Shown one piece after another: positions 26,960-32,730 of a DNA stretch of 64,000 nt. This DNA is from Pleurocapsaceae cyanobacterium CSU_1_1. GTDB lineage: Bacteria > Cyanobacteriota > Cyanobacteriia > Cyanobacteriales > Xenococcaceae. A model generated the notes under the pieces. That model was not told where the DNA came from. It worked only from the letters and a program-made list of their open reading frames with translations, and searched no databases. The stretch lies in NCBI GenBank assembly GCA_012034765.1, contig JAAUOU010000003.1, positions 1-64,000 of the forward strand, written 5' to 3'. Numbering within the stretch: the stretch's first letter is position 1; each line of letters opens with the position of its first letter. The translations under genes and the position numbers were made by a program.

Positions 26960-28471
26960 ATGAAAGAAGAACTAAATATTCTAGTCCAGGCTCAATATCC
27001 GTTAATTTATCTGATTACTCCAGAAGAAGAACGGGCAGAGCAAGCGATCGCTAAAATTGCCAAAGACAATGCTGAGTACAAGCAAGTATTTGTTTGGACT
27101 GTTACCAGAGGTATAGTTGAGTACGGTCAAGCTCGTCAAGGAACACAGCACAACACAGTATCGCCTGAAGCAGCAATTGAGTGGACTATTAGGCAGAAAG
27201 AAGGTGGGATATTCATCTTCAAAGATCTTCACCCTTTTCTTGATGGACCTGTAATAACTAGATGGCTGCGTGATGCGATCGCATCTTTTAAAGGCACGAA
27301 CAAAGTAATTATCCTCATGTCTCCTCTACAAACTGTGCCAATTGAGCTAGAGAAAGAAGTTGTGGTTTTAGACTATCCTTTACCTAACTTAAGCGAACTA
27401 AATCAGGTTCTTTCAGAGCGGTTGGATAAAACCAGAGGAAGCCGTTTAGACACTGAAACTAGAGAAAAGTTGCTAAAAGCCGCCCTCGGTTTGACAAAGG
27501 ATGAGGCAGAAAAAGTGTATCGCAAAGCTCAGGTCAAAGCTGGCAAACTGACGGAAAGCGAAGTTGAAATCGTGTTGTCAGAGAAAAAGCAGTTGATTCG
27601 TCGCAATGGAATTTTAGAATACATTGAAGAAGATGAAACTCTAAATTCGGTGGGCGGATTAGAAGAGTTAAAAGGCTGGCTGAAACAGCGTTCTAATGCT
27701 TTTACTGAAAGAGCTAGGGAATATGGTCTTCCTCAACCAAAGGGAATGTTAATTTTGGGTGTTCCTGGCTGTGGTAAATCTTTGATTGCCAAAACAACTT
27801 CGCGCCTGTGGGGTCTACCCTTACTCCGTTTAGATATGGGTAGAGTGTATGATGGTTCTACAGTTGGGCGCTCAGAAGCCAATTTGCGCAGTGCCTTAAA
27901 AACTGCTGAATCTATCTCGCCTGTAATTCTGTTCATAGATGAGCTAGATAAAGCTTTTGCTGGGGGCGGTGGTTCTGGTGATTCTGACGGCGGAACATCT
28001 GGTCGGATCTTTGGTTCTTTCCTTACCTGGATGCAAGAGAAGAAGTCCCCTGTATTTGTGATGGCAACGGCTAATCGAGTTGAAAGATTACCTGGGGAGT
28101 TTCTCCGTAAAGGCAGATTTGACGAAATATTCTTTGTGGACTTACCCAGTTCCGCAGAGAGAGAAGATATTTTTAGGATTCATTTGGGCAAAAGACGTTC
28201 TGAAATCAATCGCTTCGATTTAGAACAGTTAACCAAAGTTTCTGATGGTTTTTCTGGGGCAGAGATCGAGCAGGCAATCATCGCCGCAATGTATGATGCT
28301 TTTGCTCAAGACAGGGAGTTTACGCAGTTGGATATAATTGCTGCGATTAAAGCTACCTTGCCTTTGTCTCGGACAATGACTGAACAGGTAACAGCCCTAA
28401 GAGATTGGGCTAGGCAAAGAGCCAGACCTGCATCAGCCTCCGTTGCTGAATATCAGCGACTGGAGTTTTAA
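26960..28471 (+). CDS. ycf46: Ycf46-type AAA+ ATPase
   Basis: A 503-residue AAA+ protein. The N-terminal ~220 residues form a degenerate ATPase-like domain (LVQAQYPLIYLITPEEERAE, GGIFIFKDLHPFL) that lacks a Walker A motif. The second domain is a canonical AAA module with Walker A LGVPGCGKSLIAKT near residue 265, Walker B PVILFIDELDKAF near 325, arginine finger LRKGRFDEIFFVDLP and sensor-2 GFSGAEIEQAI. Ycf46 is conserved in cyanobacteria and red-algal plastids and is linked to inorganic-carbon and photosynthetic regulation. It sits between the RHH gene and ycf35. Confidence 0.92.
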   Translation: MKEELNILVQAQYPLIYLITPEEERAEQAIAKIAKDNAEYKQVFVWTVTRGIVEYGQARQGTQHNTVSPEAAIEWTIRQKEGGIFIFKDLHPFLDGPVITRWLRDAIASFKGTNKVIILMSPLQTVPIELEKEVVVLDYPLPNLSELNQVLSERLDKTRGSRLDTETREKLLKAALGLTKDEAEKVYRKAQVKAGKLTESEVEIVLSEKKQLIRRNGILEYIEEDETLNSVGGLEELKGWLKQRSNAFTERAREYGLPQPKGMLILGVPGCGKSLIAKTTSRLWGLPLLRLDMGRVYDGSTVGRSEANLRSALKTAESISPVILFIDELDKAFAGGGGSGDSDGGTSGRIFGSFLTWMQEKKSPVFVMATANRVERLPGEFLRKGRFDEIFFVDLPSSAEREDIFRIHLGKRRSEINRFDLEQLTKVSDGFSGAEIEQAIIAAMYDAFAQDREFTQLDIIAAIKATLPLSRTMTEQVTALRDWARQRARPASASVAEYQRLEF

Positions 28472-28613
28472 CAGGCTTTCTTCTGTAATTTCTCAGAAGT
28501 TGCAGAAGCAGAGGCTAGCATACGCTAGCAGTTTTCAGTAAAATAATTCGTCAATATAGACGGTTATTAATTTTAAAGTTGTTGTTTACATCTCTTCTAC
28601 TGGAGGAAATCAA

Positions 28614-28964
28614 ATGTCTCACTTTAGCACTCTACGCACCAAAATCAGCGATTCTGCAATTCTCGTAAATTCTCTTCGCGATCTTGGTATCAACGTTCAA
28701 ACTAACGCTGATGTTCGTGGTTACAACGGTCAAAGACTTCGTGCTGATATCGTTGCAACTTTAGAAGGCGAATACGATCTAGGTTGGTCTGAAAATAGCG
28801 ATGGTACATTCGACCTAATCGCTGACCTTTGGGGTGTTGCTAAAAAGCACAACCAAACTGAGTTAATCAACTCAATCAACCAAAAATACGCTGTTAACAA
28901 AACTTTGGCTGACGTTAAACAACGTGGTTTACAAAATGCCAACGTCAAACTAGTTCTTCAGTAA
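28614..28964 (+). CDS. ycf35: Ycf35 / DUF1257 family protein
   Basis: A 116-residue protein of the DUF1257 family, called Ycf35 in plastids. The start MSHFSTLRTKISD and the segment ADIVATLEGEYDLGWSENSD are characteristic. Its function is unknown. A strong ribosome-binding site (GGAGG) lies six bases before the ATG. Codon use is strongly biased and pyrimidine-ending, suggesting high expression. A terminator follows. It lies 142 bases after ycf46, so it may have its own promoter. Confidence 0.9.
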   Translation: MSHFSTLRTKISDSAILVNSLRDLGINVQTNADVRGYNGQRLRADIVATLEGEYDLGWSENSDGTFDLIADLWGVAKKHNQTELINSINQKYAVNKTLADVKQRGLQNANVKLVLQ

Positions 28965-29045: not shown

Positions 29046-29390
29046 TTATACAGCAGCAAAAATCTGATTAATAAATCCCGACACTATAGTTAGTACAATT
29101 GATCCTAAAACAGCAGGAAAAAATCCAGCTATAGTCAAACCTGGGGTCAGATAACTGACTAAACCCAGAGCGATCGCATTGACTACCAAAAGAAACAGTC
29201 CCAAAGTCAAGATTGTCAACGGCAGAGTAAACAGAATTAAAATTGGTTTAACCACAGCATTAACTAAACCCAAAACCGCTGCCCCCACTACGGCAGAAGA
29301 AAAGCTGACTATAGTAAATCCTGGGACGATAAATGCTGTCACGATTAAGGAAACAGCAGTTGCCAACCAAGTTACGATAAATTGCAACAT
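29046..29390 (-). CDS. Phage-holin-superfamily-IV-like membrane protein
   Basis: A 114-residue, almost entirely hydrophobic protein with four predicted transmembrane helices and the family motif LGLVNAVVKPILILFTLPLTI between helices two and three (split reading: LGLVNAVVKPIL, FTLPLTIL). These proteins are widespread in bacteria and are not linked to phage lysis. The function is unknown. It converges on the ycf35 terminator. Confidence 0.9.
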   Translation of the reverse strand: MLQFIVTWLATAVSLIVTAFIVPGFTIVSFSSAVVGAAVLGLVNAVVKPILILFTLPLTILTLGLFLLVVNAIALGLVSYLTPGLTIAGFFPAVLGSIVLTIVSGFINQIFAAV

Positions 29391-29475: not shown

Positions 29476-29790
29476 CTAGCTAGTGGCAATGGTTTCTGCA
29501 TCAACATCAACAGTTTTGCTGGCAGGATTTTCAGTGCTAGGATTTGTAGTAACGTTTTTGTTTTCTTGACGAGCTTGCAATTTAGCAATCATCATTTGTG
29601 ATAATTCAGTAAATAATAAGCCTGCTAACATTACATCATCTATTTGACCCAAAACTGGAATAAAATCTGGTGCAATATCGATGGGGCTAACTAAATAAAT
29701 AATAGTCCCTAAAATTACCCACCAACGATATTTAGGGTGGCGAACTGCGTTGCGATACCAATCGTACAGGGAAGAAAGAGAGAAATTCAT
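29476..29790 (-). CDS. YkvA family (DUF1232) protein
   Basis: A 104-residue membrane-associated protein with the DUF1232 signature IYLVSPIDIAPDFIPVLGQIDD and a preceding hydrophobic helix. The C-terminal ~30 residues are Asn/Thr/Glu-rich and disordered. The function is unknown. It lies 85 bases upstream of the holin-like gene on the same strand. Confidence 0.9.
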   Translation of the reverse strand: MNFSLSSLYDWYRNAVRHPKYRWWVILGTIIYLVSPIDIAPDFIPVLGQIDDVMLAGLLFTELSQMMIAKLQARQENKNVTTNPSTENPASKTVDVDAETIATS

Positions 29791-29905: not shown

Positions 29906-30628
29906 TTAAAGTAGAAATCTCAAAACTTTTAAGCCTATACGTCGCTTAAAGACACTTGTTGCTGACAGTCCATCTAGCAAACGATAGATAATCCAATATT
30001 TAAGTGGGTGCTTTATTAGTCTGGTTAAAAGTAATTTTAAGAGTAAAAAGATACCCAAACAAATTGATAGCTTGGCTAGATAGTTAAGCGGAATTAAATA
30101 CCAAATTAAAATATTAATTACGACCATGGCGATCGCCGAAAAACCAACTAGCAACCAGGAATACCCAGCCTTTGATTTAAAGGGGAGTTGCGCCAGGATT
30201 TCGGCAATGAGCCAGTAATGAGCCTGAGATATTTGCTTGAGTAGTGAGGGATTTTGCGCAAGTTCTTGTTGAATTTGCTGAGATATTTTGCCCTCTAAGC
30301 TGATAATACTCCGAAACAAAATAGATGGCTGCTGGTTATCTAATGAGTATTCTGTGGAAAAAGTTAAATTAGATTGTGCGCAAGTTGAAGGTTGTGACCA
30401 AGGCAGGTTTAACAGAGTGTAATGACGCAGATTAGCCAAATTAGTCGCAGATACAGCTAATTTAACCTGATGAGCCTGATTGTGGGCGATCTGCTCCAGC
30501 AGTTTGCCATCCAGACGAAAACAAACCTGATGGGGAATAGTTACCTTGGGACTGATTCTGATGAATTTAAGCTCAATACAAGAATTTAAAAGATCGTTGC
30601 TACTTGCGGGTAAGTTTTTGTTATTCAC
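29906..30628 (-). CDS. Hypothetical protein with C-terminal membrane helices (cluster gene 4)
   Basis: A 240-residue protein that I do not recognise. The first ~150 residues look soluble (SPKVTIPHQVCFRLDGKLLE and a beta/alpha mix). Residues ~155-215 hold two or three strongly hydrophobic segments (LLVGFSAIAMVVINILIWYL, LAKLSICLGIFLLLKLLL), followed by a basic tail. It starts six bases after the stop of the 224-residue gene and is very likely co-translated with it. It is the last gene of a four-gene unknown cluster downstream of maf. Confidence 0.7.
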   Translation of the reverse strand: MNNKNLPASSNDLLNSCIELKFIRISPKVTIPHQVCFRLDGKLLEQIAHNQAHQVKLAVSATNLANLRHYTLLNLPWSQPSTCAQSNLTFSTEYSLDNQQPSILFRSIISLEGKISQQIQQELAQNPSLLKQISQAHYWLIAEILAQLPFKSKAGYSWLLVGFSAIAMVVINILIWYLIPLNYLAKLSICLGIFLLLKLLLTRLIKHPLKYWIIYRLLDGLSATSVFKRRIGLKVLRFLL

Positions 30629-30634
30629 GATACC

Positions 30635-31309
30635 TTACTGACGTGCGACCAAAGAAAGTATAAACTTAACCAAACCACGCCACTGTTGTTCTCCTGTGGC
30701 GGTTGACTGTTCGTGCAGTTGCAAGAGTAAATTGCGATCGCTGTGTCTCAAAATTGCTTGGTCATAACGATTCACAATTTTACCGTTGAGCTGTAAAGAT
30801 GTTTGAGCATAAGTCGTATCCGTAATATTATGCTGATGGGATGAACTACGCAAAATGCGATCGCGCCGATCTAAAGCAATTTTACGTTTGTTTAACTGCT
30901 GTAAAACATCAATAAACTGACCTTCTTTTAAGAGTTGATTAACCTGAGACATTGAATTGCGACTATGGGGAATTGGTTCGGGTAATCTTGTCGGAATCTT
31001 CTCCCAATCAACGTTTTGCTGACTTAGAATCGGTAGATCGCGTTTTATTTCTCCTACCAGCAGGCGGTTATATTGTGCTGAACTAGCATCGATCAGCAAC
31101 AGACAATAAGCTAATTCAAGCTGACGGCGTAACTGTAAATAGCGATTCCACAACGACAAATTGATTGCCGATTGCTCTAGATAAGATCGAGAAAGAATGT
31201 AAATAGCTTGGTAAACTTCCCAAGGAATAAAGATTTCATCGACAATTTCATCGACAATCACGGTGCTAATTTCCACCGTAGTAATATTTTTTAGCAGATT
31301 TTGATGCAT
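30635..31309 (-). CDS. Hypothetical protein (cluster gene 3)
   Basis: A 224-residue soluble protein of unknown function. It is helix-rich, with no signal peptide, metal motif or known catalytic motif by eye. The N-terminal half includes FIPWEVYQAIYILSRSYLEQ and LWNRYLQLRRQLELAYCLLL, plausible helical packing or protein-interaction surface. It is followed after six bases by the membrane protein gene, which suggests that the two products act together, perhaps as a soluble/membrane pair. Confidence 0.65.
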   Translation of the reverse strand: MHQNLLKNITTVEISTVIVDEIVDEIFIPWEVYQAIYILSRSYLEQSAINLSLWNRYLQLRRQLELAYCLLLIDASSAQYNRLLVGEIKRDLPILSQQNVDWEKIPTRLPEPIPHSRNSMSQVNQLLKEGQFIDVLQQLNKRKIALDRRDRILRSSSHQHNITDTTYAQTSLQLNGKIVNRYDQAILRHSDRNLLLQLHEQSTATGEQQWRGLVKFILSLVARQ

Positions 31310-31504
31310 AAACGGCAGCTTTTAAACAGGTTTTGATACTAAATCTGATTCTCAACACGGTGATTGGACAAGCGGAGGAAACATTCGCGTACCTCACTAT
31401 CAAAGTACACTTTTAATTTAAGAGTCAGAAACGAGTTTAAAACCTTCTGACTTCTAACTTGACAAAACTTTTAAGCGTTGTATATAAACAGGATTTAGTA
31501 TGAT

Positions 31505-32305
31505 TTACGATTCAGGAGTTTCTGTATTCACTGCTTCGTTTTGTTCTTCCCAATTATGCCAATTTTCTTTGGCTTCTTTGATATTGAGAGATTTTAGATC
31601 GAATACTCCAGTTTGGACATCAGGTTCTTCGTCTAACCACTCACTCCAGTCTGCTTGATTGTTGAGAGTTGTTTCTGAATCTGTCACACCGTCAATGTCA
31701 GCCAAAGATAGCAGATCATTCACCATCTGCTCATCTTCAGTATTTAAAGCAGGTAATTGAGGTTCAAAATTATTTTCGTCCCTTTCGGCTAGATGATGAT
31801 TGGCATTATTTTCCTTCTGGTTGCTTACTTGACTAGCCGCCAAGACATGGTTGGCATTGGGTTGTGTCGGTAAAGATTCACGGGCGACATCCGTGGCAAT
31901 ATCCACCCAATTTGCATGATTTGTCGTCTGCTGCTGCTGAAAAGATGACATAAGCTGGAACATCTTTTGCAAACTAATCAAATTATGTTGAATTGTTTGG
32001 TGTCCTTGAGTTACCTGCTGAATGTGGAATTCCTTAATTTCCGAATAGCGATCGCCTGTCAGCTTTTCGCCAATTTCGTTTTCAACTTTGCCTTCAATTA
32101 AATTGATGTGAGTATGCAGATAATTATCCATCTGACCATCGTTGGCAGCTATTTTTTGCCCATCAGCGGTAACTATTTTAGTGGTAATGTTTAACTCAGG
32201 TGCGTTGCTCATCGCCACCAGAAACGCTTCGCTAATATTACCTGCTCTAATTGCCTGTTTAAAATCTTCGCTAGATGTCATCAGTTTTAATCTTCTAGAG
32301 GTCAT
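31505..32305 (-). CDS. Hypothetical protein, paralogue of its upstream neighbour (cluster gene 2)
   Basis: A 266-residue protein. Residues ~10-115 are homologous to the 130-residue upstream neighbour: both share AMS near the start, an ITTKI/VTTYL strand, a THINLIEGKVENEIGEKL helix and a HIQQVTQGHQTIQHNLISL helix ending in a Met-rich stretch. The C-terminal 130 residues are a different, highly acidic low-complexity tail (DDLLSLADIDG-like repeats, NQADWSEWLDEEPD). The domain looks like a helical hairpin/coiled coil. No family name comes to mind. Confidence 0.65.
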   Translation of the reverse strand: MTSRRLKLMTSSEDFKQAIRAGNISEAFLVAMSNAPELNITTKIVTADGQKIAANDGQMDNYLHTHINLIEGKVENEIGEKLTGDRYSEIKEFHIQQVTQGHQTIQHNLISLQKMFQLMSSFQQQQTTNHANWVDIATDVARESLPTQPNANHVLAASQVSNQKENNANHHLAERDENNFEPQLPALNTEDEQMVNDLLSLADIDGVTDSETTLNNQADWSEWLDEEPDVQTGVFDLKSLNIKEAKENWHNWEEQNEAVNTETPES

Positions 32306-32337
32306 ATCTAATTGAGCAAGCTATACCTAGCTAGAAT

Positions 32338-32730
32338 TTAAGTACAATCTTGATTAGTAATCATCTGTCGCATCTGTTCTAAGCTGGCAAGATTCTTGAT
32401 TAAAGATTCTTGTCTTCGGCGTACTTGTTCAATATGCCATCGTTGTAATTCGCCATAGGTAGAATTGTCAATCAATTTAAGATCAACTTCATGTTGAACC
32501 GTTTGGTTGAGCAGATCGATTTGGGTATAAAATCGACTGGTTGATGCCGATTGCTCTAAGTGATCTAAATCCCAGCTATCAAGATAAGTTGTCACCTCAA
32601 TTTGAGCTGTTTCGCTCATGGCATTGGTTAGAGCCTGAAAGATTTCCTGAGTCAGAGGTTTTGCTGTAGTTTGCTTGGTTGATGTCATAGTTAAATTTGA
32701 TGCGAATTGGTTAGTAAACAAATCAATCAT
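32338..32730 (-). CDS. Hypothetical protein, short paralogue (cluster gene 1)
   Basis: A 130-residue protein made almost wholly of the domain shared with the following gene: TQIDLLNQTVQHEVDLKL, then YGELQRWHIEQVRRRQESLI and NLASLEQMRQM. It may start at 32730 or at the ATG (MTSTKQ) 14 codons in. The stop lies 32 bases before the next gene, and maf is 42 bases upstream on the same strand, so transcription from maf is possible. Function unknown. Confidence 0.65.
   Translation of the reverse strand: MIDLFTNQFASNLTMTSTKQTTAKPLTQEIFQALTNAMSETAQIEVTTYLDSWDLDHLEQSASTSRFYTQIDLLNQTVQHEVDLKLIDNSTYGELQRWHIEQVRRRQESLIKNLASLEQMRQMITNQDCT

Follow-up and report, generated by a model that had tools for sequence, protein, structure and literature searches.

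Four anonymous genes in a cyanobacterial genome form a conserved cluster with a recurring core domain and a tentative YbaB-like fold

Do four consecutive genes that resemble no described family act as one system, and from what are they built? The question is raised by a locus of Pleurocapsaceae cyanobacterium CSU_1_1 (contig JAAUOU010000003.1), within a stretch of 64,000 nucleotides that is called here the window. An initial annotation, made from the nucleotide sequence, reported four consecutive minus-strand genes and suggested that a duplicated adaptor, a soluble partner and a membrane protein might form one complex. The open reading frames (ORFs), which we term A, B, C and D from upstream to downstream, are present exactly where they had been placed (Table 1). 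Our analysis revealed that the four genes are a conserved unit, in which C and D form the most coherent part, and that the A/B genes, named together since A and B share a domain, are a layer that may be lost or may occur by itself.

In a scan of named genomes, in which each species was represented by one genome and the C alignment served as the query, 80 of 86 confirmed relatives were kept, all of which appear to be cyanobacterial by the genera in their record titles. In each of the 80 loci C is followed by D on the same strand, and in 63 of them the two genes overlap or are at most 30 bp apart (ORFs counted from the first possible start). The window itself has the gap of 6 bp between C and D that had been noted initially, next to gaps of 32 bp (A-B) and 195 bp (B-C). 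An A/B gene occurs no more than 5 kb upstream of C in 70 of the 80 loci; in the other ten it is found elsewhere in the genome (four loci), about 8 kb upstream (L099), or not at all (five genomes, namely four of Nostoc and L069, whose genome is about 2.9 Mb). Wherever all the genes are present in the neighbourhoods of C matches, the order A/B - C - D is constant.

The distribution over genomes agrees with this picture. A search with the single C sequence found matches at E ≤ 0.01 in 18 of 116 genomes of the window's class; a match in G068 (E 0.0098, inside an ORF of 1071 aa) was set aside. Profile searches of the same 116 genomes gave 25 with A/B, 18 with C and 17 with D. When a weak C match in G092, inside an ORF of 809 aa, is set aside, C and D occupy the identical 17 genomes, with A/B in all 17 plus eight more. 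C-D is regarded as the most coherent unit because A/B is missing in some genomes that have C-D, and present alone in others. In the window's own family 23 of 27 genomes have a C match and 22 have A/B; the number of A/B matches is two in 19 of these 22 genomes, one in two of them and four in the last. A draw from the whole phylum gave C in 25 of 244 genomes, all 25 in the window's class (the share of the 244 that lies outside this class is not shown). Fixed-order co-occurrence in many cyanobacteria, named at the outset as the support to look for, is thus found for C-D in 80/80 loci, for A/B in 70/80 and for the shared set of 17 genomes, but not in the sense that all four genes are always present. 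The relatives keep the neighbourhood, and the genes do not map to unrelated known families.

The claim that the four proteins belong to no recognized family stands as well. None of A-D has a match in Pfam or NCBIfam that reaches the curated cut-off, and PHROGs and PADLOC gave nothing convincing; the single PADLOC hit is a weak partial match of A (E 0.0095), which does not make A a member of the PADLOC model. Searches that also covered PDB profiles returned only weak and inconsistent matches, such as BrxL_ATPase for A (E 0.0025), BopE for B (E 0.003), and NUP133 (E 0.03) and CD-NTase-associated protein 12 (E 0.04) for C, so that assignment to a known family by sequence was rejected. A viral fold was likewise considered for C and discarded (best Foldseek E 1.6). 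The cluster was not found in the open PMC literature as covered by the titles and the beginnings of abstracts of the top matches, with locus tags not searched.

The proteins are related to each other. The A/B, C and D families were aligned separately, with representatives below about 75% identity (56 of 112, 46 of 95 and 57 of 95 sequences, respectively) plus the rows from the window, and their cores were compared by hhalign, with 60 column-shuffled comparisons and a reversed one as controls. The C-D comparison scored 44.9 (shuffled maximum 18.3, reversed 15.3) and the A/B-D comparison 32.2 (18.6 and 21.0). Because these scores exceed both kinds of control, profile comparison firmly supports a common core for C-D and for A/B-D. 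Earlier comparisons of whole alignments pointed in the same direction, and the hidden Markov model (HMM) of D also matches many C proteins, with domain E-values of about 3e-6 to 2e-3. The third pair, A/B-C, scored 22.1 (shuffled maximum 20.5, reversed 22.4); this result is marginal and counts against a single core for all families, and here the common core is suggested mainly by predicted topology, as sequence alone does not establish the kinship. The conserved positions are few and strict: one His is invariant (58/58 A/B, 47/47 C and 58/58 D rows), a hairpin Gly is found in 55/58 A/B, 47/47 C and 58/58 D rows, and Thr or Ser precedes the hairpin in 58/58 A/B and 47/47 C rows; in all four proteins of the window the spacing from this Thr/Ser to the His is 29-30 residues. 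The view of a duplicated adaptor with two unrelated partners can accordingly not be kept, as the core found in C and D is related to the A/B core (marginally so by sequence for A/B-C). Comparison with two close relatives (L043, L044) gave proportions of nonsynonymous differences (pN) of 0.16-0.43 and of synonymous differences (pS) of 0.60-0.75 for B, C and D; because of this difference these three genes are taken to be under purifying selection, although silent sites are near saturation.

Which fold does the core adopt? AlphaFold models were obtained for the A/B domain (residues 1-127 of B; mean predicted local distance difference test score (pLDDT) 80.5, predicted template-modelling score (pTM) 0.61) and for C (mean pLDDT 83.7, pTM 0.65). 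The A/B model consists of helix-helix-strand-strand-strand-long helix. The helical domain originally ascribed to both A and B is indeed shared, as the two are homologous across 113 residues (27% identity, E 6e-10 in a two-sequence comparison), but it is not purely helical, given the three strands of the model; the HI-Q-V pattern noted with it falls into the last helix. The A/B and C models have the same order of elements, namely a helix, strand 1, strand 2-turn-strand 3 and a long C-terminal helix with the invariant His. Relative to this alpha-beta-beta-beta-alpha arrangement the A/B model has an extra N-terminal helix, and in the C model a helical insert, about 126 residues long, separates strand 1 from strand 2. 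The order alpha1-beta1-beta2-beta3-alpha2 is the topology of YbaB/EbfC proteins, whose sheets interact in the dimer according to an excerpt of a review (PMC9610160), and both models conform to it. When Foldseek candidates were re-aligned with VIA, the top three rows for C were all YbaB structures, namely 3f42 (Z 6.5, root-mean-square deviation (rmsd) 3.6, 74 aligned), 1pug (Z 5.7) and 1ybx (Z 5.5), with the next row at 4.5, while for A/B 3f42 came first (Z 5.3, rmsd 4.0, 80 aligned) and other YbaB chains took ranks 5, 6, 7 and 13. Other folds among the candidates (RNase PH-like, polo-box, release-factor and long-helix) were regarded as background (Z 3-5), and none of them recurs as YbaB does.

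A number of results weigh against taking this likeness as common descent with YbaB. VIA re-aligns Foldseek's own candidates only, and its Z values for YbaB are all below 8, a range that common arrangements reach as well; with the A/B model, unrelated long-helix chains tie with YbaB at Z 5.1-4.9. In Foldseek itself the YbaB matches of A/B are not significant (E no better than 0.8), and the list for C is headed by three unrelated processome chains, with YbaB fourth (E 3.4). Profile comparison detected no kinship of C or D with cyanobacterial YbaB, the hhalign scores being below the shuffled mean. The A/B core did score 21.3 against the YbaB profile (shuffled maximum 17.0), but over 19 columns only, and in one hhalign comparison those columns pair the last helix of A/B with the first helix of YbaB, out of register. 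YbaB membership by sequence was rejected on these hhalign results, and no PF02575 match was listed at E ≤ 1 for the window proteins or at E ≤ 0.1 for ten relatives. Since the Z values are weak, the Foldseek E-values not significant and the sequence kinship unconvincing, we treat the YbaB-like fold as a lead and not as family membership.

The same evidence bears on the idea of a membrane-nucleoid tether, in which YbaB-like domains would bind DNA, D would provide the anchor and the B tail would modulate binding as a DNA mimic. That the VIA re-alignments of both models are headed by a family described as DNA-binding fits such a role, and charge does not speak against it, because the median net charges of A/B (-6) and C (-5) resemble that of the cyanobacterial YbaB domain (-6). 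However, sequence kinship with YbaB is the very point that failed to convince, the His that is invariant in the core does not fall on a position conserved in YbaB, and a canonical YbaB was found in 59/59 class genomes, whether or not they carry the cluster, which makes the tether quite unlikely in our judgement.

Outside the core, B and D carry regions of their own. B has the acidic tail that was initially described, with a net charge of -24 over 139 residues. To place it among its relatives, we collected 43 B-type proteins (A/B genes of at least 230 aa, with the window and six orphans described below included, and the same-contig repeats L031, L032, L070, L078, L090, L111, L118 and L121 omitted). 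Their tails are 95 to 1789 residues long and net negative in 43/43 cases (-7 to -567); no Pfam domain was found in the long tails scanned. The motif DPFA occurs in 22/43 tails (1.0 expected after shuffling) and EDW..F in 15/43 (0.2 expected), these being the top patterns out of a scan of many. The window tail is among the shorter ones and has W-rich acidic stretches related to these motifs. D and C were right to be called a membrane and soluble pair, as hydrophobic segments are found in D and none in C, and across the families a strongly hydrophobic segment is present in 56/58 D, 0/47 C and 1/58 A/B rows.

From these elements we put forward, tentatively and with somewhat less than even confidence, that the cluster encodes a self-contained, membrane-anchored hetero-oligomer derived from one ancestral YbaB-like alpha-beta-beta-beta-alpha domain, in which the acidic tail of B binds a client. 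Soluble C, with its helical insert, and D, with its membrane segment, would form the core pair, probably sheet-to-sheet as in YbaB dimers, and D would anchor the assembly at the membrane. A and/or B may dock on the C-D core via their own copies of the domain, and the presumably disordered tail of B, which in many relatives is long and has repeated aromatic motifs, could offer many weak binding sites and so bind and concentrate the client at the membrane. The gene order, the joint occurrence of C and D, a core common to C-D and A/B-D by profile comparison and to A/B-C by predicted topology, the hydrophobic region of D and the composition of the B tail are direct observations; the complex, its YbaB-like pairing, a scaffold or recruitment role and the client itself are what we infer from them. 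In a bolder version, which we consider rather unlikely, one YbaB-like domain would have given rise to four dissimilar subunits of a single hetero-oligomer that is an undescribed membrane scaffold, with the acidic B tail and its aromatic motifs organizing a membrane-proximal condensate.

Several observations sit uneasily with the proposed assembly. Four Nostoc genomes of 8.5-9.5 Mb (L081, L086, L095, L100) have C-D without an A/B match, so that A/B is not obligatory, and in eight class genomes A/B has a match but neither C nor D does. The 43 tails include close relatives in addition to the six orphans, and the motif counts are not independent; the tail of the window B contains no exact DPFA or EDW..F. 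Finally, the number of hydrophobic segments per D protein varies from 0 to 6.

The acidic tails allow other explanations. A, C and D might be a dedicated chaperone set of YbaB-like holdases or escorts, with the B tail or another protein as cargo: the tail is acidic and disordered-looking and lies beside small YbaB-like partners, and excerpts of two reports (PMC6107294, PMC6319747) describe the YbaB-like EspH and EspL of the mycobacterial ESX-1 system as proposed chaperones for partner proteins. Yet B itself has the domain, unlike cargo, and D has a membrane segment. Besides, a single A/B gene and no long tail are found in Nostoc-type and Pseudanabaena loci, the four Nostoc genomes just mentioned have C-D and no A/B match at all, and only maf and psbP recur widely nearby (secretion genes were not sought by name); on balance we regard this explanation as unlikely. 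Alternatively, the cluster could be a membrane-linked expression switch, with D sensing or held at the membrane, C as its partner and the B tail acting on RNA polymerase like an activation domain. The W/F motifs of the acidic tails and the close spacing of a membrane/soluble gene pair are compatible with such a switch, but A-D match no DNA-binding or sigma-factor family in the Pfam and NCBIfam scans, and the loci of Nostoc type and of Pseudanabaena again argue against it, which makes it very unlikely. Promoter and terminator scans of the locus performed no better than on shuffled sequence.

How did the A/B layer arise? In a tree of 54 chosen A/B domain rows, in which many forks are weak and the bootstrap has not settled, the short A and long B copies are largely apart, although B is not one clade; because of this separation the duplication looks old. 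Gene A of the window forms an extremely long branch. It is a fast-evolving copy, which has kept the Thr and His of the core but not the hairpin Gly. In the two closest named relatives all that remains of it between maf and B is a relic interrupted by stop codons (L043:8850-9140 and L044:9060-9215), while Pleurocapsa MO_192.B19 retains an ORF 53% identical to the window A over 116 residues. No such A/B relic was found in the retrieved loci of the four Nostoc genomes with C-D. Of the eight class genomes with A/B only, seven were inspected, and six whole ORFs encode the orphan proteins of 381-824 aa with acidic tails (L178, L179, L180, L181, L182 and L184), while in the eighth genome, G093, the match is weak and lies at the edge of a contig. 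The tails of L180, L182 and L184 end in a similar NPFEID-LENDPFADLM stretch. Two further variants concern the whole cluster: G363, a member of the window's family, has two A/B pairs and two C genes on contigs C140 and C237, which suggests that the cluster is duplicated there, and in L186:2372-10486 the C-D and A-B pairs lie about 8 kb apart, with other ORFs in between, among them two of 633 and 571 aa.

In the window the cluster is preceded by psbP and maf, and it could be thought to belong with them as a photosystem-related unit. A comparison of the window and 46 chosen loci found a relative of maf near the cluster in 14/47 loci and of psbP in 9/47, and apart from these two no neighbour family recurs in more than four of the lineage groups compared. 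The functional link was nevertheless rejected: the psbP-maf pair occurs in genomes without the cluster (e.g. G037, G073, G077, G066 and G053), in eight other cluster-bearing class genomes (G002, G018, G021, G027, G051, G056, G087 and G107) it lies on another contig or about 165 kb away, and the flanking genes differ between lineages, so a photosystem role is most improbable. Ten neighbours, mostly beside orphan A/B genes, were scanned; eight belong to enzyme or binding-protein families, and two had no match. A defence or mobile-element module with patchy spread has next to no chance in our estimate. The distribution across the class is indeed patchy, with C in 17/116 genomes, but C is common in the window's family, PADLOC offered nothing convincing, and carriage by plasmids, phages or viruses was dismissed after no C was found in plasmids, no B in phages and no confirmed C relative in viral contigs.

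Downstream of D the window encodes a PF04020 four-transmembrane holin-like protein and a DUF1232 protein (29046-29390, 29476-29790). At 26960-28964 lie an AAA ATPase and then a DUF1257 protein, which presumably resemble Ycf46 and Ycf35, plastid-conserved genes of unclear function.

Table 1. Genes of the cluster and regions of the encoded proteins, with positions in the window
Feature	Position	Strand	Description
Gene A	32338-32730	minus	130 aa; stand-alone A/B domain
Gene B	31505-32305	minus	266 aa; A/B domain followed by acidic tail
Gene C	30635-31309	minus	224 aa; soluble protein, core split by helical insert
Gene D	29906-30628	minus	240 aa, GTG start; core followed by hydrophobic region
B residues 1-127	31925..32305	minus	A/B domain (AlphaFold model)
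B residues 128-266	31508..31924	minus	acidic tail, probably disordered (from composition); W-rich acidic stretches
C residues 29-154	30848..31225	minus	helical insert between core strands 1 and 2 (model)
C residues 165-224	30638..30817	minus	strand-hairpin-strand-long helix (predicted); invariant T170, L174, G176 and H199
D residues ~84-160	30149..30379	minus	core common to the families (by sequence); G113 and H137 invariant
D residues 161-205	30014..30148	minus	hydrophobic segment(s); Kyte-Doolittle window means 1.9-2.3

With these results four anonymous genes become one testable system, which is absent from the family libraries searched and is found in more than one cyanobacterial order. If the proposed assembly is correct, it would be a hetero-oligomer built by duplication, in which one domain occurs as free, tailed, insert-bearing and membrane-anchor copies, and the roles of the YbaB-like fold would be widened beyond DNA binding. 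The tails of B, whose length at a single conserved position varies between about 95 and about 1,800 residues, also provide a natural series for the study of acidic disordered arms at bacterial membranes.

Among known systems, YbaB/EbfC (PF02575) resembles the cluster proteins in the helix-strand-strand-strand-helix order of the A/B and C models and in the leading position of YbaB chains in VIA. The cluster proteins differ from it in having no Pfam match and no convincing profile kinship, as well as in the helical insert of C, the membrane segment of D and the acidic tail of B, and the genome has a separate canonical YbaB as well. B can further be likened to a general class of condensate or scaffold proteins whose acidic disordered tails are long and bear aromatic motifs; the resemblance lies in its folded end domain and its acidic tail, long and rich in motifs in many relatives, although B matched no specific family. 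The nearest precedents that we would propose, by analogy, for diverged YbaB-like proteins that handle proteins and not DNA are EspH and EspL of ESX-1. They belong to a mycobacterial secretion locus and are likened here by the description of their fold, not by sequence comparison, but like the genes of the cluster they are, in the excerpts of the reports cited (PMC6107294, PMC6319747), diverged YbaB-like proteins encoded beside their partners, with a proposed role in protein handling.

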